From a virus: 64,000 nt of DNA. The notes under the pieces are model-generated. The model made no database searches and was not told the DNA's origin. It saw only the letters and a program-made list of their open reading frames with translations. Below are positions 5,780 through 38,987 of the stretch, piece after piece. Within the stretch, counting starts at the first letter, position 1, and the number at the start of each line of letters is the position of its first letter. The stretch lies in IMG/VR virus record IMGVR_UViG_3300028392_000038, positions 1 to 64,000 of that record. One strand, given 5' to 3'. Both the position numbers and the translations under genes were made by a program.

Positions 5780-7501
5780 ATGTCACACATTAGAATAGAC
5801 AAACAAAAAGCAGTTAAGAAGTGGTCTCCAGTATTAGAGAACATGGGTGTAACTGGCGAAAGAGCTGAATGGATGGCTGAATATGCTGAATTTCACTCAA
5901 TCAATGAAAATGCGTATGTAAACGCATCAAACGTAGGCGGTATGGGAGCAGTATTAAACCCAGTACTTGGCGCAAATAACCTACCTGGAACAACAAATGG
6001 TTCAGCATGGTCAAACGGTGGCGGTCTCGCAGGTTCAGGGGATGTAGGTCAAAACTTACTTCCAGTAGCTATGAAAATTGCAGCTCAAACAATCGGTTTA
6101 GATTTAGTAGCTGTAAAACCAACTCCAGGTCCAAAAATTGACTTACTTTATATTGATTTTCAATATGATGATACAGTTTCTAACGAAAGACCTCAAGTTT
6201 TCAAAGTTGACGCAACTAATATTACAACTATCAACGCAGCTTTAACAGCTGGTTTATCAGCATCTAGCATTAGACAAAATTCTGGTGGTTTACAAAACGG
6301 TAGATTATGGACTGCATTAAACTTCACAGTTCAATCAGCATCACCTTTCAGTGGAGCTGGTTACTTAGCAGGAGCACAAACTGATTCATCTTTCACATCT
6401 AAAGCAGGTGTAGTTGAATTTTTAGGTTTCTCTCGTATTGACGGACAACCTATGTTCAAAGCTTACAGACAAGCTAATACTGCTGGTCAATTAAATTACT
6501 TCGCATTTGATGCTACATTAAACACATTCGACGCTTCTCAGACTTTAGTAGCTGGTGTTGCTAGAATTGCTGGTATAACTGTATCTAGTTGTGCAATCAG
6601 TTTAGTTTCAGCTTTAGAAGATCATATCCCAGGTTTCTCTGCAAACTGGTCAATGAATACTGCTGGAAACGCAGGTTATGCACAAGGTGCTTACCCAATG
6701 GACAGAAGTGAAGATGATAACTCATATGCAGGTGTTATCGGACCAAAAATTTCTTCTAAAACTATTGCAGTTGGTACTATTGAAGTATCTTCAGCTCTAA
6801 GAAGAACTGAAATTGAAGATATCAAAGCTAACACAGGTATGGATATCGTTCAAAAAATGGAGTCAATCCTTGTTAACGAATTATCTCAAACAATCTCTAA
6901 ACAAATTGTTGCTAAGATTTTCGAAATGGGTGCTCTAAACGCAACTAACGCTCCAGCTTCTACAGCAGGTGGGTCAGCTACAACTATTTTTGACTTAGAT
7001 ACAGCTTATGCTACATCTACTTTAGGTGGTGAAACTACTCACGCAGTTCAAAGAAAATTAGTTACTAAGATTGCTCACGCGTCTAACTACATCGCAACTG
7101 AAGGACGTGTTGGTCCAGCTCAATACCTTATCACAAACGGAGGTCTTGCTGCAGCTTTATCTGATATCTCTGGTTACACAATTAACCCAGTTAAATCTAA
7201 GATGAACTCTCAAGGTCAACTTTACCCAGTAGGTTCTATTGGAGATATTTCAATCTATGTTGATCCATATATGAAGTATAATGACAACAGAATCGTTCTT
7301 GGTAGAAAGAACAATCCTGACCAACCAGGTATCATTTTCGTACCTTATTTAATGGCTCAGTCTATCTCTGTAATTTCTGAAGCGACTTTCGCACCAAGAA
7401 TGTTACTAAGATCAAGATATGCAGTTGCTGAAGTGGGTTGGTATCCTCAAAAACAATTTATGACTATTACAGTTACAGATGCTAAACAGTACCTTAACTA
7501 A
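5780..7501 (+). CDS. gp23: Major capsid protein (T4 gp23-like)
   Basis: 573 aa, the main shell protein. It resembles gp23: an N-terminal charged helical delta region (KKWSPVLENMGVTGERAEWMAEYAEFHS), then NLLPVAMKIAAQTIGLDLVAVKPTPGP at about 92-118, and conserved late segments (QKMESILVNELSQTISKQIVAKIF; IFVPYLMAQSISVISEATFAPRMLLRSRYAV; YFPQ-type end WYPQKQFMTITVTD). SINE at residues 40-43 is a good hydrophobic-x-Glu maturation site, which would remove 43 residues (T4 removes 65). The gene follows the protease, as in T4, and ends in a strong terminator. Codons are G/C-richer than those of the neighbours, as expected for a highly expressed gene. Confidence 0.92.
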   Translation: MSHIRIDKQKAVKKWSPVLENMGVTGERAEWMAEYAEFHSINENAYVNASNVGGMGAVLNPVLGANNLPGTTNGSAWSNGGGLAGSGDVGQNLLPVAMKIAAQTIGLDLVAVKPTPGPKIDLLYIDFQYDDTVSNERPQVFKVDATNITTINAALTAGLSASSIRQNSGGLQNGRLWTALNFTVQSASPFSGAGYLAGAQTDSSFTSKAGVVEFLGFSRIDGQPMFKAYRQANTAGQLNYFAFDATLNTFDASQTLVAGVARIAGITVSSCAISLVSALEDHIPGFSANWSMNTAGNAGYAQGAYPMDRSEDDNSYAGVIGPKISSKTIAVGTIEVSSALRRTEIEDIKANTGMDIVQKMESILVNELSQTISKQIVAKIFEMGALNATNAPASTAGGSATTIFDLDTAYATSTLGGETTHAVQRKLVTKIAHASNYIATEGRVGPAQYLITNGGLAAALSDISGYTINPVKSKMNSQGQLYPVGSIGDISIYVDPYMKYNDNRIVLGRKNNPDQPGIIFVPYLMAQSISVISEATFAPRMLLRSRYAVAEVGWYPQKQFMTITVTDAKQYLN

Positions 7502-7582: not shown

Positions 7583-7999
7583 ATGAAACATATTAATAAT
7601 TTCAAATTATATTTAGAATCAAAAAAGGATAAATTTCCAAATATACAAAAGAAGGAAATAGATGGATTTACAGTCTATATTGGTAAAGATGCCAAGTCTA
7701 ATGATTATCTAACATTTAATATGGCTGATAATGATGATATATGGATGCATGTAAAAGGTATACCAGGTAGTCATGTTGTAGTTAAAACAAAAGAAATATC
7801 ATCAACTAAAGAAATGTTTATACCCTCTAAAGAAATTTTAAGAAAAGCAGCAGAATTAGCTAAAAAGAATAGCAAGTCTCCAAAAGATGAAAAATCAACA
7901 GTTGTTTATTGTCAAAGAAAGTTTGTTAAGAAAGAAAAAGGAATGAATGATGGTCAAGTCAAAGTAGATTATGTTAATTCCTACGAAATTATAATTTAA
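7583..7999 (+). CDS. Stand-alone NFACT-R (DUF814) RNA-binding domain protein
   Basis: A 138-aa protein. Residues 26-65 (DGFTVYIGKDAKSNDYLTFN, then DDIWMHVKGIPGSHVVVK) carry the hallmark of the NFACT-R domain found in RqcH/Rqc2/FbpA-type proteins: G-x-x-V-x-x-G-K, N-D-x-L-T, D-x-W-x-H-V-K-x-x-P-G-S-H-V-V. In those large proteins the domain binds 60S/50S ribosome-tRNA complexes for quality control of stalled chains. Here the NFACT-N, helix-hairpin-helix and coiled-coil parts are all missing, so tRNA recruitment as in RqcH cannot be assumed. The start MKHINNFKLYLES resembles a capsid-targeting sequence. It is close to a phage tmRNA, a second ribosome-rescue element. Confidence 0.85.
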   Translation: MKHINNFKLYLESKKDKFPNIQKKEIDGFTVYIGKDAKSNDYLTFNMADNDDIWMHVKGIPGSHVVVKTKEISSTKEMFIPSKEILRKAAELAKKNSKSPKDEKSTVVYCQRKFVKKEKGMNDGQVKVDYVNSYEIII

Positions 8000-8034: not shown

Positions 8035-9384
8035 ATGGCAGATCAAACACCAGAAAGAATTAAAATGATATTTACTGAAGAATTTTATAACATTCTAAAA
8101 AAATTAGAAGCTGAAAATAATTATTTAGCCTTTGAATTACTTTGGATGATTGAACCAGATTCTAAATTTCACAATGGATTAAAAATATCAAAAGTAGATG
8201 TATCTAAACAAGATTGGTCATTTGATGTAACAGTAGATGGCAAAGTTATACCTATGAAAATAGGTAAATTTGTGAGATATTATTTTGCAGGAATAATAAG
8301 TGATAAAGAAGCTAGTGAATTTTCAAGATTATATAATAAAATAAGAAAAGGAGAACCTGTTCAACCAGGAAATCAAATTGAAATTAAAGAATTTTCTTAT
8401 AATCCAAAAGATGTTAGGTCTACATTCCTTTCTTTAGTTACTAAAACATATCCACACGGACATGAAGATGAAGTTCTTAAATTCTTACCTTCTTTACAAA
8501 AAGATGAAGTAGGAAACTATTATAAAATAATAGGTAAAACTCCTCAAACAATGTTTACATCTCACTTAGACACAGCCGATAGAGAACAAAAAGATACTAA
8601 ACTATACTCTATGATTGAGAATGATGAGGAGTATATTGTAACAGATGAAAGTACTATATTAGGAGCAGATGATAAGTCTGGTGTGGCAGTAATGTTATAT
8701 ATGATGTCACATAATATACCAGGTCTTTATTACTTCTTTATAGGAGAAGAAAGAGGTGGTATTGGTTCAAATAAGTTATCTAGAATATACGATACAGTAT
8801 CTTATTTAAAGGAAATTAAAAGATGTGTTTCATTTGATAGAAGAAATTATCATTCTGTTATTACTTCACAATTAGGAAGAAGATGTTGTTCTGATGAGTT
8901 TGGAACTGCTTTATGTAAAGAATATAACAAAAATGGACTAGATTTATCATTAGATCCTACAGGAATATACACAGATTCGGCATCATTTATAGATGATATT
9001 AGAGAATGTACTAATATATCAGTAGGTTATTTTCATGAACACACTGGTCAAGAATATCAAAATATGAATTATCTTATCTCACTATGCGAGGCTTCTATAA
9101 AAGTTAATTGGAATTCACTACCAACAATAAGAAAAGTTGGTATAAATCAAGAAATTATACAAAAACACAAAGGATTAATTGCTGATGTTAAATCAACAGT
9201 ATTTGAATTAGAAGTTAAAATGATTGGAGATAATGGTAAAGTCTTTATAAGAGTAGATTTAGATGATTCTGATATAGAATCAATATCTGATGGGTTATCA
9301 TCATTAAAATCACTTCTAATGAAATATAAAATGGATCCAGATATTATTTTTGATGGAACATATCTAAAAATTGAATTGAAATAA
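8035..9384 (+). CDS. M20/M28/M42-type zinc exopeptidase
   Basis: A 449-aa protein with the metal-binding set of di-zinc exopeptidases in order: SHLDT (His177, Asp179), GADDKSG (Asp212/213), GEERGGIGS (Glu238/239), FDRR (Asp268), and a late histidine in YFHEHTG (His334/336). Such enzymes remove amino acids from peptide ends. The peptidase part spans about residues 125-360. Residues 1-110 form an extra domain not recognised, and residues 370-449 a small alpha/beta tail. It lies between the NFACT-R protein and the tmRNA, so it might process short peptides, but the substrate is unknown. It ends one base before the next gene's ATG. Confidence 0.82.
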   Translation: MADQTPERIKMIFTEEFYNILKKLEAENNYLAFELLWMIEPDSKFHNGLKISKVDVSKQDWSFDVTVDGKVIPMKIGKFVRYYFAGIISDKEASEFSRLYNKIRKGEPVQPGNQIEIKEFSYNPKDVRSTFLSLVTKTYPHGHEDEVLKFLPSLQKDEVGNYYKIIGKTPQTMFTSHLDTADREQKDTKLYSMIENDEEYIVTDESTILGADDKSGVAVMLYMMSHNIPGLYYFFIGEERGGIGSNKLSRIYDTVSYLKEIKRCVSFDRRNYHSVITSQLGRRCCSDEFGTALCKEYNKNGLDLSLDPTGIYTDSASFIDDIRECTNISVGYFHEHTGQEYQNMNYLISLCEASIKVNWNSLPTIRKVGINQEIIQKHKGLIADVKSTVFELEVKMIGDNGKVFIRVDLDDSDIESISDGLSSLKSLLMKYKMDPDIIFDGTYLKIELK

Positions 9385-9385
9385 T

Positions 9386-9838
9386 ATGAAACTAAAGAAT
9401 TATAAAGAACTATTCGAAAAATACGAGGATACTGATTATGATGATGAGTCATATTATAATGATGATGAATATCTTTTTGGTAGACCAAATCATTCAAAGA
9501 AAGGAACCGAAGAAGAAGAGGAAGAGGAAGAAATGATTGGTGATTCTGATATGGATAACCTTCTATATTTATTAAGAACTATGTTCAAGAATAAAGGTAT
9601 TAAAGATGTTTATGTTGAACATGATGAACTTGATATAACAATATCAGTTACTATGGGTTATAGAGAAAAGATAGAATCAATTATTAGTGTTTTTGATACA
9701 GCTAAAAGATTGAAAAGAGATATTCTACCTCAATATGATTCAGAATTTGAAATGTGGGAAACTAAAGATGGTAAACCACTTCTAGTATTTAACTTCTATT
9801 ATGGAGAAGGATTAGAAGATGATAATACTCCTTTTTAA
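9386..9838 (+). CDS. Hypothetical acidic protein, 150 aa
   Basis: Function unknown. It starts MKLKNYKELFEKYED, which could be a capsid-targeting-like N-terminus. Residues about 17-50 are extremely acidic, ending in a run of eight or so Glu. The C-terminal 95 residues look folded (DNLLYLLRTMFKNKGIKDV, then ISVTMGYREKIESIISVFD). It sits immediately after the exopeptidase stop and is probably in the same transcript. The end is 55 bases before the tmRNA. Confidence 0.62.
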   Translation: MKLKNYKELFEKYEDTDYDDESYYNDDEYLFGRPNHSKKGTEEEEEEEEMIGDSDMDNLLYLLRTMFKNKGIKDVYVEHDELDITISVTMGYREKIESIISVFDTAKRLKRDILPQYDSEFEMWETKDGKPLLVFNFYYGEGLEDDNTPF

Positions 9839-9893: not shown

Positions 9894-10273
9894 GGGGATG
9901 TTTTAGAATCGATTGGTAGTGTGGTGGTAGTTATGCAGGTATCGGGTGGTTAAGTGTCCGATTAATAAATTAAGTAACACGTCGTAAATGGCAAAACAAA
10001 TGAAGTAGGAACTCGTGAAGATTTAGTAGCGGCTCTACAAAACAACATGATCTTGGTAGAAGATCTAGCAACTGTCTAATAAATAGTTACTATCAAAAAA
10101 TTCTCCAACCTGATTCACACAGGATAAAAAAGGTGAGACCATTTTTTGTAACTTTTTAGAGTCTGTCCAAAAAAGTATCTATTTTGTTGATTTAGAAAAA
10201 TTAACTAAGCTTGTAAACGAATAATTATAAACAACTATTAAGACACCGGACGCAATATCTGGTCATCTCCACA
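9894..10273 (+). ncRNA. ssrA: Phage tmRNA (transfer-messenger RNA)
   Basis: About 380 nt, normal tmRNA size. The 5' end GGGGATG pairs with CATCTCC at 10264-10270 as a 7-bp acceptor stem. It is followed by TTTTAGAATCGATTGGTAG, close to the conserved tmRNA 5' segment. The 3' side has CTAAGCTTGTAAACGA and CACCGGACGC, close to conserved 3' segments. TGGTAGTT (9925-9932) pairs with AACTATTA (10233-10240) as helix 2. ATCGG/CCGAT (9941-9945, 9958-9962) fits the first pseudoknot stem. A tag frame starts at GGC 9990 and ends TAATAA. CCA is not encoded after the A at 10271. The T-arm is odd: ACCGG/CTGGT with a 9-nt loop lacking TTCAA. tmRNA rescues stalled ribosomes and tags the nascent chains. Confidence 0.9.
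9990..10079 (+). other. tmRNA tag reading frame (29 aa, ends in ATV)
   Basis: From resume codon GGC (9990-9992) the frame reads GKTNEVGTREDLVAA, then LQNNMILVEDLATV, then TAA TAA. The Bacteroidota tag starts GENN and ends ALAA; here the start is similar (AAATGGCAAAACAAA against the Bacteroidota AACTGGCGAAAACAA). The tag is about three times the usual length and does not end in the LAA that ClpXP recognises. An internal LVAA sits at residues 12-15. Other frames hit a stop within a few codons. Confidence 0.75.
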
Positions 10274-10275
10274 AG

Positions 10276-10308
10276 AACAAAAGACCATTTCTGGTCTTTT
10301 GTTGTTTT
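10276..10308 (+). terminator. tmRNA terminator
   Basis: AACAAAAGACCA pairs with TGGTCTTTTGTT as a 12-bp perfect stem with loop TTTC, followed by GTTTT, right after the tmRNA 3' end. Confidence 0.9.
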
Positions 10309-10348: not shown

Positions 10349-10867
10349 ATGATAAATAAATTTGAAGGCAGATATAGATTCTTATCTAATTTTTACCCTT
10401 GTGAAATAGAACATCAAGGTATTAAATACCCATCAGTAGAAAACTTTTATGTAGCAATGAAAGTCAATGACCAACAATTAATAAATGGTAAATACTACAC
10501 ACCCGGAGATTTTAGAGAAATGATAGCTCTTATTAAAAACCCATCTGAGGTTAAAAAAATTGGAAGTAAAGTTAAACTAAGAAGTAATTGGAATGAAAAG
10601 AAATTAGAAGCAATGAACTGGGCAGTTAGACAAAAATTCAAAAACAATCAAGAACTAAAAGAAATGTTACTTAGTACATCAAACCAAGAATTAGTTGAAG
10701 AGAATTATTGGCACGATGTTTACTGGGGAATATGCACCTGTGGTAAATGTGGTAATAAAGGAGAGAATAATCTTGGTAAAATTCTAATGGAAGTTAGAGA
10801 TGAATTAACACCAAGAAATCAAAGACCTTCATTGGAAGATCAAATTAAGAAAAACTCTTTGAAATAA
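10349..10867 (+). CDS. NADAR-family protein (YbiA-like N-glycosidase)
   Basis: A 172-aa protein matching the NADAR (DUF1768) family along most of its length: FEGRYRFLSNFYPCEI at 5-20, GIKYPSVENFYVAMK at 24-38 with the conserved Glu31, and YWHDVYWG at 120-127, then NNLGKILMEVR at 140-150. NADAR domains cleave N-glycosidic bonds of ADP-ribose-linked substrates. Family members have been reported to remove ADP-ribose from guanine bases and to be linked to anti-phage conflict. A phage copy could reverse host ADP-ribosylation; that role is inferred. An unusual CTCGKC cluster is inserted at 129-134. The gene has its own promoter-like box and terminator. Confidence 0.9.
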   Translation: MINKFEGRYRFLSNFYPCEIEHQGIKYPSVENFYVAMKVNDQQLINGKYYTPGDFREMIALIKNPSEVKKIGSKVKLRSNWNEKKLEAMNWAVRQKFKNNQELKEMLLSTSNQELVEENYWHDVYWGICTCGKCGNKGENNLGKILMEVRDELTPRNQRPSLEDQIKKNSLK

Positions 10868-11004: not shown

Positions 11005-11826
11005 ATGAGAAAATTAAGAAAGTTAACATATGATCAAGAATTGGAAGTTTTTAACGAACGAGAATCAGATAATAGAAGAAATGATATTATATCAAAATGG
11101 GGAATATCAGAAAGACATTATAAAAATATAATTTTAAAATTTGGAGGTGAGTTAAAAAAAATACCAACTTGGTGTAATTTTAATATAGATTACTTTGAAT
11201 CTATAGATACCGAAGATAAAGCTTACTTTTTAGGATTTATTGTTGCAGATGGGTGTGTTAGTGATAGCACAAATAACATTAGAATAACACAGAAAGAAAC
11301 TGATATTTTATATGAATTTAAAAAATATACTAATTCAGAAGGTAATGTATTTACTTCAAAAAGTAGAAATATTTCAAGTTTTGGTTTATCATCCGCTAAA
11401 ACTAAGAGTGATTTGGAAAAATTAGGAATACATTCAAATAAAACAATGGTAGTTAAATATCCAAATATACCTGATAACTTACATAATCACTTCATGAGAG
11501 GAGTATTTGATGGAGATGGGTGTATATCTATACATCATGATAAAAGAGATAATAGTGACAGAGGACAAGTTAATATATGTTCTGGTAGTTATGATTTTAT
11601 AAAAGAATACTATGATAAATTGGTTGAATTTGCTAATTTAAGTGGTAAAAATAAAATAAGATGCCCTAAAGGAACATATTATGTTATTGATTGGGGTGGT
11701 TTAACTGATGTTGAGAACATTTACTATTTTTTATATAAAGACGCGAATGTGTTTTTAAAAAGAAAAAAGGAAACTTTTGATAAAGTAGTATCTATAACTA
11801 AAGATAAAAATAAATATAGAAAATAA
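11005..11826 (+). CDS. LAGLIDADG homing endonuclease
   Basis: A 273-aa protein with two LAGLIDADG motifs: YFLGFIVADGC at residues 74-84 and FMRGVFDGDGC at 163-173, both with the catalytic acidic residue in place. The spacing fits a single-chain enzyme with two half domains. Residues 5-48 resemble a helix-turn-helix (RRNDIISKWGISERHYKNII), a common DNA-binding extension. The stop codon is directly followed by the ATG of the Dam-like methylase, so the gene is wedged in front of it. No intron was recognised: both genes look complete, so it is probably free-standing. Confidence 0.88.
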   Translation: MRKLRKLTYDQELEVFNERESDNRRNDIISKWGISERHYKNIILKFGGELKKIPTWCNFNIDYFESIDTEDKAYFLGFIVADGCVSDSTNNIRITQKETDILYEFKKYTNSEGNVFTSKSRNISSFGLSSAKTKSDLEKLGIHSNKTMVVKYPNIPDNLHNHFMRGVFDGDGCISIHHDKRDNSDRGQVNICSGSYDFIKEYYDKLVEFANLSGKNKIRCPKGTYYVIDWGGLTDVENIYYFLYKDANVFLKRKKETFDKVVSITKDKNKYRK

Positions 11827-31640: not shown

Positions 31641-34600
31641 TTATTTTTCTATTATAATTTTAGGTATATCTTTTCTTTCAGCATATACTACATAATAACA
31701 ATTAGGATAACCACCATTATCTGATTTAACATAAACTTTATTATCTTCTACCTTTTCAACAAATAATCTTTGATATGATCCAAAAGGAGTCAATTCAACA
31801 CTAATTGTAGAATTATCAACTAAATCAACCCAATAATAAGGAAGTTCTATAATATGTCCATTTAATTTACCTCTATAATAAACACCATATTCAGGTCCCT
31901 CTAATGATCCATAAGTTAATCTCTTAGTAGGATCAGAAGGGTGAACAATATCAAATGATTTTGATATAGCAAAGAACTTTCCTTGTACATTAACATCACC
32001 AAGAACATCAACTTTGAAAGGACTACCAGTAGAAGGAACAAGACCAATACCAACATTAACACCATCATCCCATATAGAACTAGTAGATGATAAAGTAGTA
32101 GATGATGTATAATATGGAGTGTAATTAGTAACACCTGTTAAAGAAACAGATGATCCACTTGATCCAGATGATCCATTAGATCCTGATGATCCATTAGATC
32201 CTGATGATCCACTTGATCCAGATGATCCACTTGATCCAGATGATCCACTCGATCCAGATGATCCACTTGATCCAGAAGTACCATTAGTTCCGTCAGTACC
32301 ATTAACACCAGATAAACCAGATGTTCCACTTGATCCAGAAGTACCAGAAGAGCCGGATGTACCAGATGATCCAGAAGTACCAGATGATCCAGATGTACCA
32401 TTTGATCCATCAATACCATTTACACCACTAATACCTGATGATCCAGAAGTACCAGATGATCCAGAAGTACCAGATGATCCAGAAGTACCAGATGATCCAC
32501 TTGTACCAGAAGAGCCGGATGTACCAGAAGAGCCGGATGTACCAGATGATCCAGAAGTACCAGATGATCCAGAAGTACCAGAAGAGCCGGATGTACCAGA
32601 AGAGCCGGATGTACCAGATGATCCAGAAGTACCAGATGATCCAGAAGTACCAGATGATCCAGAAGTACCAGATGATCCAGAAGTACCAGATGATCCAGAA
32701 GTACCAGATGATCCAGAAGTACCACTTGATCCACTTGTACCGGAACTACCAGATGTACCATTAGATCCATCAATACCATTCACTCCACTGATACCACTTG
32801 ATCCACTTGTACCTGATGATCCACTTGTGCCTGATGATCCAGATGTTCCACTTGATCCACTTGTGCCTGATGATCCAGATGTTCCACTTGATCCACTTGT
32901 GCCAGAAGAACCAGATGTTCCACTTGATCCAGAAGTACCAGATGATCCAGATGTACCAGATGAACCAGAAGTACCACTTGAGCCGCTCGTACCAGATGAT
33001 CCAGAAGTACCACTTGATCCACTTGTACCAGATGATCCAGAAGTACCACTTGATCCACTTGTACCAGATGAACCAGATGTTCCACTTGATCCAGATGTAC
33101 CAGAAGAACCAGAAGTACCTGATGATCCACTTGTACCGGAACTACCAGATGTACCTGATGATCCACTTGATCCAGAAGTACCATTTGTACCATCTGTTCC
33201 ATCTATACCAGATAATCCAGAAGTACCACTTGATCCACTTGATCCAGATGATCCAGATGATCCAGATGTACCAGATGAACCACTTGTACCTGATGATCCA
33301 GATGTTCCACTTGATCCAGATGTACCATTAGATCCATCAATACCATTCACTCCACTGATACCACTTGAGCCGCTCGTACCTGATGATCCACTTGTACCAG
33401 ATGTACCTGATGATCCACTTGTACCAGATGTACCTGATGATCCACTTGTACCTGATGATCCACTTGTACCTGATGATCCACTTGTACCAGAAGTACCAGA
33501 TGATCCAGAAGTACCAGATGATCCACTTGTACCAGATGATCCACTTGTACCAGATGATCCACTTGTACCAGATGATCCACTTGTACCAGAAGTACCAGAT
33601 GATCCACTTGTACCAGATGATCCAGAAGTACCATTTGATCCATCAATACCATTTACACCGCTAATACCAGAAGATCCAGATGTTCCACTTGATCCAGATG
33701 TACCAGATGATCCAGAAGTACCACTTGATCCAGATGAACCAGATGAACCAGATGTACCTGAACTACCACTTGTACCGGATGATCCAGATGATCCAGAAGA
33801 ACCAGATGTACCTGAACTACCACTTGTACCGGATGATCCAGATGTACCACTTGATCCAGATGTACCTGAACTACCACTTGTACCGGATGATCCAGAAGTA
33901 CCAGATGATCCACTTGATCCACTTGATCCACTTGTACCGGAACTACCAGATGTACCATTTGATCCATCAATACCATTTACACCGCTAATACCAGATGATC
34001 CACTTGAACCAGATGTTCCACTTGTACCAGATGATCCACTTGTACCAGATGATCCACTTGATCCAGAAGAACCAGATGATCCACTTGAACCAGATGTTCC
34101 ACTTGTACCAGATGATCCACTTGTACCAGATGATCCACTTGATCCAGAAGTACCTGATGATCCACTTGTACCAGAAGTACCAGATGATCCAGAACTACCT
34201 GAACTACCACTTGATCCAGAAGTACCTGAACTACCACTTGTACCGGAAGATCCACTTGTTCCATTTGATCCATCAATACCATTAACACCGCTAACTCCAG
34301 AGGATCCACTTGTACCAGATGTACCAGATGAACCACTTGTACCAGATGATCCAGAAGTACCAGATGATCCAGAAGTACCAGATGATCCAGAAGTACCAGA
34401 TGATCCAGATGTACCAGATGATCCAGAAGTACCAGATGTTCCAGATGATCCAGATGTTCCAGATGATCCAGATGTACCGGATGATCCACTTGTGCCATTA
34501 GACCCGTCAATACCATTCACTCCACTGACACCAGAAGATCCAGAAGTACCAGATGATCCACTTGAACCAGAAGTTCCGGATGATCCACTCGTGCCAGATG

Positions 34601-37600
34601 AACCAGAAGATCCACTTGTACCAGAAGATCCACTTGTACCAGATGATCCAGAAGTACCTGAACTACCACTTGTACCACTTGATCCAGATGTACCAGAAGA
34701 ACCAGATGTACCACTTGATCCAGATGTACCAGAAGAACCAGAAGAACCAGAAGAACCAGATGTACCACTTGATCCAGAAGAACCAGATGTACCACTTGAT
34801 CCAGAAGTACCAGATGTTCCACTTGATCCAGATGTACCAGAAGAACCAGATGTACCAGATGTACCACTTGATCCAGAAGTACCAGATGTACCACTTGATC
34901 CAGAAGTACCAGATGTTCCACTTGATCCAGATGTACCAGATGTACCACTTGATCCAGAAGTACCTGATGTTCCACTTGATCCAGATGTACCTGATGATCC
35001 AGATGTACCTGATGATCCAGATGTACCTGATGACCCAGAAGTACCAGAAGATCCACTTGTACCTGATGATCCAGATGATCCAGAAGTACCTGATGACCCA
35101 GAAGTACCAGATGATCCAGAAGAACCGCTTGATCCAGAAGAACCGCTTGTACCTGATGATCCACTTGATCCAGATGTACCATTTGATCCATCAATACCAT
35201 TTACACCGCTAATACCAGATGATCCAGATGAACCGCTTGTACCAGAAGAACCAGATGATCCACTTGTACCAGATGATCCACTTGATCCAGAAGTACCAGA
35301 AGATCCACTTGTACCTGATGATCCAGAAGAACCAGATGTACCGGATGTACCTGATGAACCACTTGATCCAGATGTTCCACTTGACCCAGATGTACCAGAA
35401 GAACCACTTGTACCAGATGTTCCACTTGATCCTGAAGATCCACTTGTACCAGAAGAACCGGATGTACCAGAAGTACCAGATGATCCAGAAGTACCAGATG
35501 ACCCACTTGTACCAGAAGTACCCGATGATCCAGAAGACCCACTTGTACCAGAAGTACCCGATGATCCTGCTGATCCACTAGATCCTGCTTGAGCTAAAAG
35601 ATTCCAATATGCCAAATTGATTGGATATGGTCCATATGATGGAGCAATACAAATATAAGATGAACCATTATATTGTACAACATCATTGATGCTAAAACTA
35701 TGGTTTATATCCCAATCTCCATACCAATGAATAGAAGTACCTGAACTACCACTTGTACCAGATGATCCAGAAGTACCAGATGATCCAGAAGTACCAGATG
35801 ATCCAGAAGTACCGGATGATCCAGATGATCCAGATGTACCTGATGATCCACTTGTACCGGATGAACCACTTGTACCAGATGATCCAGAAGTACCAGATGA
35901 TCCAGAAGTACCGGATGATCCAGATGATCCAGATGTACCGGATGAACCACTTGTACCGGATGATCCAGATGATCCAGAAGTACCAGATGTACCGGATGAT
36001 CCAGATGTACCGGATGATCCACTTGTGCCATTAGACCCGTCAATACCATTCACTCCACTGACACCAGAAGATCCAGAAGTACCAGAAGTACCAGATGATC
36101 CACTTGATCCAGAAGTACCAGATGATCCACTTGTACCAGAAGATCCGGAAGTACCTGATGATCCAGAAGTACCAGATGATCCACTTGATCCAGATGTACC
36201 AGATGTACCAGATGATCCAGATGTACCAGAAGATCCAGAAGTACCAGATGAACCAGAAGTACCGGATGTACCTGAAGTACCACTTGATCCAGATGTACCA
36301 GAAGAACCAGATGTCCCACTTGATCCAGATGTACCAGAAGAACCAGAAGAACCAGAAGTACCTGATGATCCACTTGTACCAGAAGATCCAGAAGTACCTG
36401 ATGATCCACTTGTACCGGAACTACCAGATGTACCACTTGATCCAGAAGTACCGGATGAACCACTTGTACCGGAAGAACCACTTGATCCAGATGTACCATT
36501 TGATCCATCAATACCATTCACACCACTAACTCCAGATGATCCAGATGTACCGGATGAACCAGAAGTACCACTTGATCCAGATGTACCAGAAGAACCAGAA
36601 GATCCAGAAGTACCAGATGATCCACTTGTACCAGATGATCCACTTGTACCAGATGATCCACTTGTACCAGATGATCCACTTGTACCAGATGATCCACTTG
36701 TACCAGATGATCCACTTGTACCAGATGATCCACTTGTACCTGATGATCCACTTGTACCTGATGATCCACTTGTACCTGATGATCCACTTGTACCACTTGA
36801 TCCAGAAGTACCTGATGATCCACTTGTACCAGATGATCCACTTGTACCAGATGATCCACTTGTACCAGATGATCCGGAAGTACCAGAAGTACCAGATGAT
36901 CCACTTGTACCTGATGATCCAGATGATCCAGAAGTACCAGATGATCCACTTGTACCAGAAGAACCAGATGATCCAGAAGATCCAGAAGTACCTGATGATC
37001 CGGAAGTACCAGATGATCCACTTGTACCAGATGATCCAGATGATCCAGATGTACCACTTGTACCTGAACTACCAGAAGTACCTGATGATCCACTTGATCC
37101 ACTTGTACCAGAAGATCCACTTGATCCAGAAGTACCGGAAGATCCAGAAGTACCTGAACTACCACTTGTACCTGAACTACCAGAAGTACCTGATGATCCA
37201 GATGAACCACTTGTACCTGATGTTCCAGAAGTACCTGATGATCCACTTGTACCGGAGGATCCACTTGTTCCATTTGATCCATCAATACCATTAACACCGC
37301 TAACTCCAGAGGATCCACTTGTACCACTTGATCCAGATGATCCAGAAGTACCGGATGATCCAGAAGTACCGGATGATCCAGATGAACCACTTGTACCTGA
37401 TGTTCCAGAAGTACCAGATGATCCGGATGTGCCTGAACTACCACTTGTACCACTTGATCCAGAAGTACCAGATGATCCAGAAGATCCAGAAGATCCACTT
37501 GTACCAGATGTACCAGAAGATCCAGAAGTACCTGAACTACCACTTGTACCAGAAGAACCAGATGATCCAGAAGATCCAGAAGTACCTGATGATCCAGATG

Positions 37601-38987
37601 ATCCACTTGTACCACTTGATCCAGAAGTACCACTTGATCCAGAAGTACCGGATGATCCAGAAGTACCGGATGATCCAGAAGTACCGGATGATCCAGAAGT
37701 ACCGGATGATCCAGAAGTACCGGATGATCCAGAAGTACCGGATGATCCAGAAGTACCAGTTGATCCAGAAGTACCAGTTGATCCAGAAGTACCACTTGAT
37801 CCAGAAGTACCACTTGATCCAGAAGTACCACTTGATCCAGAAGTACCACTTGATCCAGAAGTACCGGATGATCCACTTGTACCATTAGACCCGTCAATAC
37901 CATTCACTCCACTGACACCAGAAGAACCAGAAGTACCAGATGATCCAGATGAACCAGAAGTACCGGATGATCCACTTGTACCGGATGACCCAGAAGTACC
38001 TGATGATCCAGAAGTACCAGAAGAACCAGAAGATCCGCTTGTACCACTTGTACCACTTGTACCTGATGATCCAGAAGTACCGGATGATCCAGAAGTACCT
38101 GATGATCCACTTGATCCAGAAGTACCTGATGATCCACTTGATCCAGAAGTACCTGATGATCCACTTGATCCAGATGTACCTGATGATCCACTTGATCCAG
38201 ATGTACCTGATGATCCACTTGTACCTGATGTTCCAGAAGTACCAGATGATCCGGATGTGCCTGAACTACCACTTGTACCTGATGTTCCAGAAGTACCAGA
38301 TGATCCGGATGTGCCTGAACTACCACTTGTACCGGATGTACCTGAACTACCACTTGTACCGGATGTACCACTTGTACCGGATGATCCAGATGTTCCACTT
38401 GTACCGGATGATCCGCTTGTACCACTTGATCCAGAAGAACCAGATGTTCCAGATGATCCAGAAGTACCTGAACTACCACTTGTACCAGAAGAACCAGATG
38501 ATCCAGATGATCCAGAAGTACCTGAACTACCACTTGATCCAGATGTACCATTTGATCCATCAATACCATTCACACCACTAACTCCAGAAGAACCAGATGT
38601 TCCAGAAGTACCTGAAGTACCTGAAGTACCAGAAGTACCAGAAGTACCAGAAGTACCTGATGATCCATCAAGACCACCTATTAACCAATTAGAACCATTA
38701 CTAGTTAAATATAAACTATCATATTGAGAGAGTGTTTTTGTTAAAGATCCATCTATAGTTTGAGAAGAAGTAGTATTAACTGTAATAACACCACTACCAC
38801 TATTTTTTACAATATAAAACTTACCTGCTACACCAACTGATGTTGGTAAAGTAACATTAAATGTCCCAGAACAATCTATAAAATGATCATTAACTCCTAT
38901 TACATAGGCTGTTATTGTTGAATAATAAGGGAACGTAATTCCACCTAAAGATATAATACCGCGTCTAGTGACGAATTCATTAGCCAT
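31641..38987 (-). CDS. Giant proline-free collagen-like fibre protein, 2448 aa
   Basis: Residues 1-107 form a globular N-terminal domain (DHFIDCSGTFNVTLPT...GKFYIVKNSGSGVITVNTTSSQTIDGSLTKTLSQYDSLYLTSNGSNW), a beta-fold seen in phage and Bacteroidota fibres. Residues 108-2279 are Gly-X-Y triplets, nearly all G-S-S or G-T-S, interrupted about 13 times by GVNGIDGSNG blocks that keep the triplet frame, plus one carbohydrate-binding-like module near residues 1083-1133. The C-terminal 169 residues contain TNYTPYYTSSTTLSSTSSIW, GIGLVP and RLTYGSLEGPEYGVYYRGKL, like phage fibre tips. If triple helical, about 0.6 micrometre long. Probable long tail fibre; Ser/Thr residues are candidate glycosylation sites. 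Confidence 0.85.
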   Translation of the reverse strand: MANEFVTRRGIISLGGITFPYYSTITAYVIGVNDHFIDCSGTFNVTLPTSVGVAGKFYIVKNSGSGVITVNTTSSQTIDGSLTKTLSQYDSLYLTSNGSNWLIGGLDGSSGTSGTSGTSGTSGTSGTSGTSGSSGVSGVNGIDGSNGTSGSSGSSGTSGSSGSSGSSGTSGSSGTSGSSGTSGSSGSSGTSGSSGTSGTSGSSGTSGTSGTSGSSGTSGTSGSSGTSGSSGTSGTSGTSGSSGTSGSSGTSGTSGTSGSSGTSGSSGSSGTSGSSGSSGTSGSSGSSGTSGSSGSSGTSGSSGTSGSSGTSGTSGTSGSSGSSGTSGSSGTSGSSGTSGSSGTSGSSGSSGTSGSSGVSGVNGIDGSNGTSGSSGTSGSSGTSGSSGTSGSSGTSGSSGTSGSTGTSGSTGTSGSSGTSGSSGTSGSSGTSGSSGTSGSSGTSGSSGTSGSSGTSGSSGTSGSSGSSGTSGSSGSSGSSGTSGSSGTSGSSGTSGTSGSSGSSGSSGTSGSSGTSGSSGTSGSSGTSGTSGTSGSSGSSGTSGSSGTSGSSGSSGTSGSSGVSGVNGIDGSNGTSGSSGTSGSSGTSGTSGTSGSSGSSGTSGSSGTSGSSGTSGSSGTSGSSGSSGTSGSSGSSGTSGSSGTSGTSGSSGSSGTSGSSGTSGSSGTSGSSGSSGSSGTSGSSGTSGSSGSSGTSGSSGTSGTSGSSGTSGSSGTSGSSGTSGSSGTSGSSGTSGSSGTSGSSGTSGSSGTSGSSGTSGSSGTSGSSGTSGSSGTSGSSGTSGSSGTSGSSGTSGSSGSSGTSGSSGTSGSSGTSGSSGVSGVNGIDGSNGTSGSSGSSGTSGSSGTSGSSGTSGSSGTSGSSGTSGSSGTSGSSGTSGSSGSSGTSGSSGTSGSSGTSGSSGTSGTSGTSGSSGTSGSSGTSGSSGTSGTSGSSGSSGTSGSSGTSGSSGTSGSSGTSGSSGSSGTSGTSGSSGVSGVNGIDGSNGTSGSSGTSGSSGTSGTSGSSGSSGTSGSSGTSGSSGSSGTSGSSGTSGSSGTSGSSGTSGSSGTSGSSGSSGTSGSSGTSGSSGTSGSSGTSGSSGTSIHWYGDWDINHSFSINDVVQYNGSSYICIAPSYGPYPINLAYWNLLAQAGSSGSAGSSGTSGTSGSSGSSGTSGTSGSSGTSGSSGTSGTSGSSGTSGSSGSSGTSGTSGSSGTSGSSGTSGSSGSSGTSGTSGSSGSSGTSGSSGTSGSSGSSGTSGSSGSSGTSGSSGSSGISGVNGIDGSNGTSGSSGSSGTSGSSGSSGSSGSSGTSGSSGTSGSSGSSGTSGSSGTSGSSGTSGSSGTSGSSGTSGSSGTSGTSGSSGTSGTSGSSGTSGTSGSSGTSGTSGSSGTSGTSGSSGTSGSSGTSGTSGSSGTSGSSGSSGTSGSSGSSGSSGTSGSSGTSGSSGTSGSSGTSGSSGTSGSSGTSGSSGTSGSSGSSGTSGSSGTSGSSGSSGTSGSSGVSGVNGIDGSNGTSGSSGTSGSSGTSGSSGTSGTSGSSGTSGSSGTSGSSGTSGSSGTSGSSGTSGSSGTSGTSGSSGVSGVNGIDGSNGTSGSSGTSGSSGTSGSSGSSGSSGSSGTSGTSGSSGTSGSSGSSGTSGSSGTSGTSGSSGSSGSSGSSGSSGTSGSSGTSGTSGSSGSSGISGVNGIDGSNGTSGSSGTSGSSGSSGSSGTSGSSGTSGSSGTSGSSGTSGSSGTSGSSGTSGSSGSSGSSGTSGSSGTSGSSGSSGSSGTSGSSGTSGSSGTSGSSGISGVNGIDGSNGTSGSSGTSGSSGTSGTSGSSGTSGSSGTSGSSGTSGSSGTSGSSGTSGTSGSSGTSGSSGTSGSSGTSGTSGSSGTSGTSGSSGTSGSSGISGVNGIDGSNGTSGSSGTSGSSGTSGSSGTSGSSGSSGSSGSSGTSGLSGIDGTDGTNGTSGSSGSSGTSGSSGTSGSSGTSGSSGTSGSSGTSGSSGTSGSSGTSGSSGTSGSSGTSGSSGTSGSSGTSGSSGTSGSSGTSGSSGTSGSSGTSGSSGTSGSSGTSGSSGTSGSSGTSGSSGTSGSSGISGVNGIDGSNGTSGSSGTSGSSGTSGSSGTSGSSGTSGSSGTSGSSGTSGSSGTSGSSGTSGSSGTSGSSGTSGSSGTSGSSGTSGSSGTSGSSGTSGSSGTSGSSGTSGSSGTSGSSGISGVNGIDGSNGTSGSSGTSGSSGTSGSSGTSGSSGTSGLSGVNGTDGTNGTSGSSGSSGSSGSSGSSGSSGSSGSSGSNGSSGSNGSSGSSGSSVSLTGVTNYTPYYTSSTTLSSTSSIWDDGVNVGIGLVPSTGSPFKVDVLGDVNVQGKFFAISKSFDIVHPSDPTKRLTYGSLEGPEYGVYYRGKLNGHIIELPYYWVDLVDNSTISVELTPFGSYQRLFVEKVEDNKVYVKSDNGGYPNCYYVVYAERKDIPKIIIEK
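32151..38666 (-). repeat. 6.5-kb Gly-Ser-Ser/Gly-Thr-Ser triplet repeat tract
   Basis: Continuous in-frame 9-bp units such as GGATCATCT, GGATCAAGT, GGTACTTCT and GGTACAAGT. Both serine codon types (TCN and AGT) are mixed throughout. The complement strand reads as long false open frames. Assembly of this stretch may be compressed or expanded. Confidence 0.93.
35586..35740 (-). other. CBM5/12-like module inside the giant collagen-like fibre
   Basis: About 51 residues, HWYGDWDINHSFSINDVVQYNGSSYIC...YPINLAYWNLLAQ, with the W-x-x-x-Y/F-x-x-x-D-x-V-x-Y-x-G-x-x-Y...W spacing of small carbohydrate-binding modules. It breaks the triplet tract once. Confidence 0.6.

Follow-up and report, generated by a model that had tools for sequence, protein, structure and literature searches.

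A phage tmRNA gene with a 29-codon tag frame and its relatives in huge phages

Can a phage bring its own tmRNA to stalled ribosomes and, if so, what fate would a tag that does not end in ALAA confer on the protein that receives it? The question arises from a locus in the window – the whole stretch of viral DNA analysed here, 64,000 nucleotides from the start of IMG/VR record IMGVR_UViG_3300028392_000038 – for which a first-pass annotation, made from the letters alone, had proposed a phage-encoded tmRNA with a long, non-ALAA tag. That observation is confirmed: positions 9894-10274 are a tmRNA gene. Sequence comparison establishes a covarying tmRNA anatomy, an open class A frame of 27-30 codons, a lineage-specific T stem of 6 bp and, in large relatives, SmpB. 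On these comparative grounds we are highly confident that the tmRNA is functional; the role first assigned to it, most likely ribosome rescue, is supported, the large relatives encoding SmpB as well. The fuller reading, to which we give a probability of about 0.7, is that this phage ssrA gene works and represents a distinct tmRNA lineage, one carried by huge phages of Bacteroidota type, and that the RNA adds a degron tag.

A scan of the whole window at the Rfam gathering score reported no tmRNA, ARAGORN found none in the window, and a genome-scale tmRNA search of the 116-kb record to which the window belongs (G000) returned no match at E<=10; each of these results counts against the gene. Because all three were negative, the case was left open by the covariance-score standard that the first-pass annotation had set. 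The finding was rescued by its relatives and by a local search, in which RF00023 aligned from end to end over 9894-10274 with 30.6 bits (E 1.5e-10; 621 bases searched), under the gathering score of 47 bits. The gathering cut-off is treated here as a detection limit and not as a property of the molecule. The parts of the gene are as follows.

9894..10274, + strand: tmRNA gene (ssrA-like), class A of huge phages (RF00023 positions 1-374 of 374; 44-gene alignment, pair counts)
9894..9900, + strand: acceptor stem, 5' strand, GGGGATG, with G3.U70; pairs with CATCTCC
9913..9940, + strand: helix 2, 5' strand (alignment, pair counts)
9941..9962, + strand: PK1 stem, AUCGG (9941-9945) with CCGAU (9958-9962) (alignment, pair counts)
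9985..9989, + strand: UAAAU directly 5' of the resume codon, its role presumed from work on E. coli tmRNA (TAAAY in 71/77 genes)
9990..10082, + strand: tag reading frame, 29 codons (9990-10076), then TAA TAA (reading, translation, codon counts)
10049..10065, + strand: hairpin within the tag frame, 10049-10054 with 10060-10065, linking codons 21 and 25 (pair counts)
10209..10241, + strand: helix 2, 3' strand (RF00023 alignment, pair counts)
10245..10263, + strand: T arm, 6-bp stem ACCGGA/UCUGGU (10245-10250 / 10258-10263) and 7-nt loop CGCAAUA
10264..10271, + strand: acceptor stem, 3' strand, CAUCUCC (10264-10270), then A73; CCA not encoded (ACAA)
10273..10306, + strand: terminator-like hairpin, 15-nt arms, 93% complementary, T-rich 3' arm (reading and computation)

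The 7-bp acceptor stem, the terminator and the 29-codon frame ending TAATAA (tag GKTNEVGTREDLVAALQNNMILVEDLATV) described at first pass are all found at these positions, and the helix 2 and pseudoknot-like stem described with them covary in 44 aligned genes.

The same RNA is carried, according to blastn, by LR745206 (634,780 b; 78.6% identity over 88% of the query) and LR756502 (642,428 b; 76.6% over 82%), and LR756501 (735,411 b) has a short match to the window tmRNA. Among viral contigs, a degenerate pattern for the middle of the tag was matched by 31 contigs, with a tag frame in 31/31; a relaxed tag pattern was matched by 66, with a tag-like end in 65, and a PK1 pattern by 82, with many of the relatives picked up through a pattern that contains part of the PK1 stem. 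A blastn match to another reference tmRNA was obtained for 110 of the 113 viral contigs from all patterns. As for the other three, L071 passes Rfam on its own, while L054 (a PK1-pattern match) and L107 (the one relaxed-tag match of 66 that is not a tmRNA) were rejected. In all, 111 viral contigs remain; each of them, like the three named huge phages (634, 642 and 735 kb), has such an RNA at least in part. Queried with one class B RNA and one of class C, the phage collection returned only the same huge phages plus LR756503, which is as long as LR756501.

From the loci as a whole, 77 distinct candidate genes with a complete acceptor stem were extracted, 64 of them of class A; the gene finder required seven acceptor pairs and gave a bonus for G3.U70, pair types being left free. 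For anchored counts the 77 were reduced to 74 (62 of class A) by removal of L003 (group I intron), L108 (3' end misplaced) and L016 (cut by the contig end). The 62 class A genes were thinned at 95% similarity to 44, which form alignment A1. One locus, L010, has a class A tag and 3' half with an unrecognisable 5' half, and may be an assembly chimera or a broken copy; it is counted among pattern matches and is absent from all structural counts.

The RF00023 gathering score was passed by 7/17 relatives scanned (up to 71.5 bits), among which only one of ten class A relatives, L094 (57.4 bits), with a class A-type tag; ARAGORN reported nothing in 36 sources (the window and 35 loci of relatives). 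The strict class A tag pattern matched nothing in a collection of 84,980 prokaryote species genomes, and all 13 matches to a relaxed pattern lay inside longer frames that lacked PK1 and the resume motif. With no tmRNA among either set, a host-derived class A tag was rejected.

In alignment A1 the acceptor stem, helix 2, PK1 stem, T arm and tag-frame hairpin all covary. Of all cells at the 47 named pairs, 94.3% are paired, compared to 82.7% after shuffling and 36-47% when the 3' partners are slid by 1-3 columns, a control that flatters the structure because the latter was partly derived from A1 itself. Cells in which both sides have changed number 240 against 69.7 in shuffles, and none of 500 shuffles scored as high on any of five measures; chance is rejected by the two controls. 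Helix 2 (columns 23-54 with 350-383) comprises 23 pairs in three runs, paired in 90.7-100% of cells, 17 of them with compensatory change. The five pairs of the PK1 stem form in every cell, two with compensatory change, and the tag-frame hairpin is paired in 83.6% of cells, its innermost pair being open in 23/42. Figures for the acceptor stem are lowered because the 5' end is shifted in several rows of A1 (three by two bases, three by one). G3.U70 is found in 74/74 genes, a count partly built in by the gene-finder bonus. The encoded 3' end is ACAA in 45/74 genes, ACTA in 16/74 and ACCA in 8/74, and most genes would thus need addition of CCA.

Prediction by RNAalifold from A1 gives 45 pairs, 30 with changes on both sides. 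Helix 2, the PK1 stem and five pairs of the T stem are recovered. Of the acceptor only three pairs are predicted, the tag hairpin is missing, and an alternative helix is offered at columns 130-161; all three results count against the proposal.

A tmRNA T arm typically has 5 bp and a UUCRANY loop. The window's loop has no UUCRA, which again counts against it, as does the unencoded CCA, and the arm had been described at first pass as abnormal, with a 9-nt loop, and the RNA as possibly degenerate in part. Neither the 9-nt loop nor degeneration is supported by the relatives. The arm (ACCGGA CGCAATA TCTGGT) is better drawn as a 6-bp stem closing a 7-nt loop, a stem that is kept: 46/62 class A genes have it fully paired, with a 7-nt loop that is mostly GGCAGTA. 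Across the 20 distinct class A T arms the first pair is always A-U, and each of the other five varies without loss of pairing; the sixth changes from G-C to A-U in two genes, the window's among them. The remaining 16 class A arms include canonical or intermediate arms of 16-18 nt and one arm with a single mismatch; TTCGA-type loops occur in several sisters of other classes (for example GCGGG TTCGAAT CCCGC). Compensatory changes preserve the 6-bp stem; the class A T arm is derived and maintained, and a degenerate arm was rejected on the same evidence.

A tag frame with a stop (TAA or TAG) is present in 77/77 candidate genes, two start sites having been set by hand. There are 55 distinct tags, 54 of them 27-37 residues long and one (L071) of 10; the tag is about three times the usual bacterial length. 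All 42 distinct class A tags have 27-30 residues. Those of class B have 28-29 (GxAHTHIxTSxS...VA and kin) and those of class C 32-37 (...EDMMSI.TS.T...LA and kin). In six of seven large records the tag occurs once, in the tmRNA itself, and in the seventh (W03) no match was found; a tag copied from a phage protein was rejected, the tmRNA being the sole match in each of the six.

Is the peptide, or the RNA that encodes it, the object of conservation? Over codons 1-19 of class A, pN/pS is 0.53 in frame and 0.77 and 1.25 in the shifted frames, a pattern that supports translation of the tag while being only moderately below 1; translation is, on sequence evidence, very likely. Over codons 20-29 the values are 0.74 in frame and 0.63 and 0.72 shifted, with no difference between frames. 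Codons 20-26 form a hairpin in which codons 21 and 25 change together – ATC-GAT (Ile-Asp), CTC or CTT-GAG (Leu-Glu), TTC-GAA (Phe-Glu) – in 30/30 distinct 29-codon tags, so that the peptide is evidently shaped by coding and RNA structure at once. Codons V6, V13, Q17 and N18 are invariant even at silent sites; these sites, with the hairpin, indicate that part of the conservation of the tag lies at the level of RNA. It is conceivable that most of it does: the frame RNA would fold or bind something, the peptide being nearly neutral save for its end. The coupled codons, the silent sites and the RNAalifold helix fit this explanation, but the frame-specific pN/pS of codons 1-19, length changes that are exclusively in-frame, and sister classes B and C with different tags of similar length all argue against it, and we consider it unlikely.

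The last residue is A (34) or V (21) in 55/55 distinct tags, compared to 3/53 ordinary ORFs of the window, a contrast for which the Fisher value is overstated because the 55 tags are related and not independent. Within class A, residues 27-28 vary more widely than the last one, which is V or A. That the Ala/Val end is constant across otherwise different tags favors a degron over a protective tag and is the chief argument for one; the tag is probably a degradation signal. Among E. coli ssrA tags the LVA, AAV and SVA variants are in use as degrons, according to the consulted part of PMC9382460, and the phage endings fall within that range. The first-pass annotation had suggested a different fate for tagged proteins, or their protection. 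Such a non-degradative tag, rescuing ribosomes while its length shields proteins or redirects them (by localisation or sequestration), would accord with the window's DLATV ending, which is not LAA, and with the long conserved middle. The invariable A or V – including LAA, LVA, VLA, ALA and SVA endings in sister classes – makes this less likely, as do the greater freedom of residues 27-28 and the Clp genes that these phages carry, and its probability is low.

Clp genes are frequent in the large records. ClpP, in one to three copies, was found in 5/7: in four of the six searched records of at least 385 kb and in the window's own (G000 79044-79577); neither W03 nor the L028 record gave a ClpP match. 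A Clp-type AAA_2 protein (frames of about 710-750 codons) was found in 6/7, G000 being the record in which it was not. In the one examined, from W01, two AAA modules are accompanied by a UVR motif and a D2-small domain, without a Clp N-domain, a ClpC-like layout. Loci noted for such an unfoldase and for ClpP in huge phages are L133 256-2361 and L131 1384-2061, and a VGF stretch seen by eye in the unfoldase examined could dock ClpP. Given phage-borne Clp genes and a conserved tag middle, a different protease or adaptor may read the tag; that the reader is the phage's own Clp is a tentative proposal, and on present indications doubtful.

The search for SmpB covered G000 and the 35 records from which L001-L035 come. 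SmpB is present in 6/6 of those that reach at least 385 kb (E<=7.8e-50), among them the 385-kb record of L028, whose tag is the same as the window's; the four large-record SmpB proteins that were read end in a VVKGKK..DKR.TIK.R tail. It was found in none of 29 smaller relatives, and none was found in G000 (116 kb, evidently a fragment); both results count against the proposal.

On the degron reading, the RNA would be transcribed, completed by addition of CCA and then alanylated by way of G3.U70. It would enter stalled ribosomes with phage SmpB and add Ala plus the 29-residue tag to the stalled chain, the Ala/Val C-terminus serving as a degron for a Clp-type protease, either host ClpXP or a phage unfoldase with ClpP. 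The middle of the tag (NEV...EDLVAALQNN) is conserved and probably serves to tune recognition by protease or adaptor. The benefit to the phage would be that ribosomes are recycled and truncated proteins cleared during infection.

A decoy that titrates host SmpB or EF-Tu and so blocks host trans-translation, its tag unimportant, would have a precedent in the TLD-only tmRNA of mycobacteriophage DS6A, for which such a role has been proposed (PMC4131195 and PMC11915505, each consulted in part), and would accord with the altered T arm; it is nevertheless very unlikely, given a full-length RNA with helix 2 and PK1 stem maintained, a tag frame with a stop in 77/77 genes, and large phages that encode their own SmpB, for which a decoy has no need. 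A decaying or chance copy of a host tmRNA, suggested by the sub-threshold Rfam score and the absent UUCRA loop, is already refuted for the family and very improbable for the window's own copy, since compensatory changes occur in the very T arm that looks odd, the RNA is found in 111 viral contigs and has conserved neighbours, and no tmRNA turned up when the prokaryote genomes were searched with the class A tag pattern.

TAnnTTTG is a consensus box of Bacteroidota type. This box lies 15-50 nt upstream in 38/71 upstream regions, compared to a Markov mean of 3.0 (maximum 9 in 200 runs), and on the reverse strand in none; the window's own upstream region lacks an exact box, which is counted against it.

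The neighbourhood of the gene is likewise conserved, the order being capsid, NFACT-R, peptidase-T-like protein, ORF150, tmRNA, NADAR. In the window these are:

5780..7501, + strand: major capsid protein gp23 (syntenic block)
7583..7999, + strand: stand-alone NFACT-R domain protein (PF05670, E 4.3e-15; in 6/7 large records)
8035..9384, + strand: peptidase-T / tripeptidase-like protein (PDB 3rza, tripeptidase, E 1.6e-6; 3gb0, Peptidase T, E 3.3e-5)
9386..9838, + strand: ORF150, directly upstream of the tmRNA (conserved there in 42/52 loci)
10349..10867, + strand: NADAR protein, directly downstream (PF08719, E 3.4e-29; 31/32 loci)

Among class A loci with enough flank, capsid is found in 29/32, NFACT-R in 27/33, peptidase in 36/41, ORF150 in 42/52 and NADAR in 31/32, all counted neighbours being on the tmRNA strand and each on its own side; at two loci (L007, L012) peptidase and ORF150 are present elsewhere than upstream on the tmRNA strand and were scored as missing. 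The 13 loci of other classes gave no match to any of the seven block proteins tried. Pfam gave no match for the peptidase-T-like protein or ORF150; SHLDTAD, GADDKSG and EERGG motifs are visible by eye in the former. In the ribosome quality-control factor RqcH/NEMF, NFACT-R is the domain that binds RNA; the phage protein lies about 2 kb upstream of the tmRNA, and the Bacteroides control genome gave no NFACT-R match at E<=0.01. Since some ADP-ribosylations can be undone by NADAR proteins, this neighbour may act in counter-defence. Homing-endonuclease-like genes of the GIY-YIG (1892-2533) and LAGLIDADG (11005-11826) types lie in or beside the portal-capsid-tmRNA block.

Taken together, these genes could be imagined as a phage-private quality control, orthogonal to the host's: tmRNA and SmpB would add the long degron, a phage Clp unfoldase (without an N-domain in the one examined) and ClpP would read its conserved middle and Ala/Val end, NFACT-R and the peptidase-T-like protein would handle split ribosomes and recycle peptides, and the 6-bp T stem would keep host SmpB from competing. 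As a whole this scheme is speculative and improbable.

How does this RNA relate to known systems? With the standard one-piece bacterial tmRNA (RF00023) it shares a 7-bp acceptor stem with G3.U70, A73, helix 2, the PK1 stem, a resume site, a tag frame with a stop and, in large relatives, an SmpB gene. Class A differs in its tag of 27-30 residues, its 6-bp T stem with a GGCAGUA-type loop and the hairpin in its tag frame; in the window, moreover, CCA is not encoded and the score falls below the gathering score. Phage tmRNAs are already known, as is the combination of tmRNA and SmpB in huge phages. The tag of Bxz1 is also long, and ends AALV. Mycobacteriophages of the Bxz1 group, Wildcat and Bacillus phage G likewise carry tmRNAs, in other hosts (listed by name in PMC4131195). 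The portion consulted of a 2025 database built on RefSeq viruses gives 79 unique phage tmRNA sequences and a most frequent tag length of 10 (PMC11915505). Al-Shayeb et al. 2020 reported huge phages with tmRNAs, called with ARAGORN, and SmpB, the largest genomes being placed in the Mahaphage clade with predicted Bacteroidetes hosts; the part consulted does not describe the tags or T arm of these tmRNAs (PMC7162821). As run here, ARAGORN found nothing in the stretches of the three named huge phages (L001, L002, L003) or 32 relatives. The marine megaphage Mar_Mega_1 is reported to have a 657-kb genome with one tmRNA (PMC9723777, in part).

Two further systems bear comparison, each known to us from part of the paper cited. 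Mycoplasma and Mesoplasma ssrA tags are also longer, with an altered end, and are read by a different protease, Lon (PMC9382460); unlike the phage tags they are cellular, end NYAFA and belong to organisms without active ClpXP, whereas the phages have genes for ClpP and a Clp-type unfoldase. The tmRNA of the OM43 phage Melnitz is phage-borne and is proposed to help maintain the hijacked translation machinery; unlike the window's it is two-piece, related to those of alphaproteobacteria and linked to a glutamine riboswitch (PMC9004378). In the literature searched, which took in few subscription papers and no supplementary tables, no account was found of this lineage, of the long conserved tags or of the T stem with 6 bp.

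The present genes add a large, clade-wide group of phage tmRNAs missed by ARAGORN as run here. They suggest that one more T-stem pair and a changed T loop are compatible with the tRNA-like domain, and that Mollicutes are not alone in having long tags. With a conserved tag and gene block at hand, it becomes possible to test why phages bring their own trans-translation, and whether private degron-protease pairs exist; such pairs, if real, would be useful as orthogonal degrons.

Two minor observations concern other features of these sequences. T-loop introns are known in bacterial tmRNAs (PMC11915505), the consulted portion of which gave no case of a phage tmRNA with one. In the 735-kb phage LR756501.1 a group I intron (RF00028, 96.1 bits; L003 3061-3292) interrupts the T loop of the tmRNA at GGGTTTGAT...ATCCCTG, the tag of this gene being GDYKMNAEDMMSIPTSLTGKVATESFVEDLVLA. 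In the window itself, 31641-38987 holds a frame of 2448 codons, with long open frames on the opposite strand too, that perhaps encodes a repetitive structural protein.
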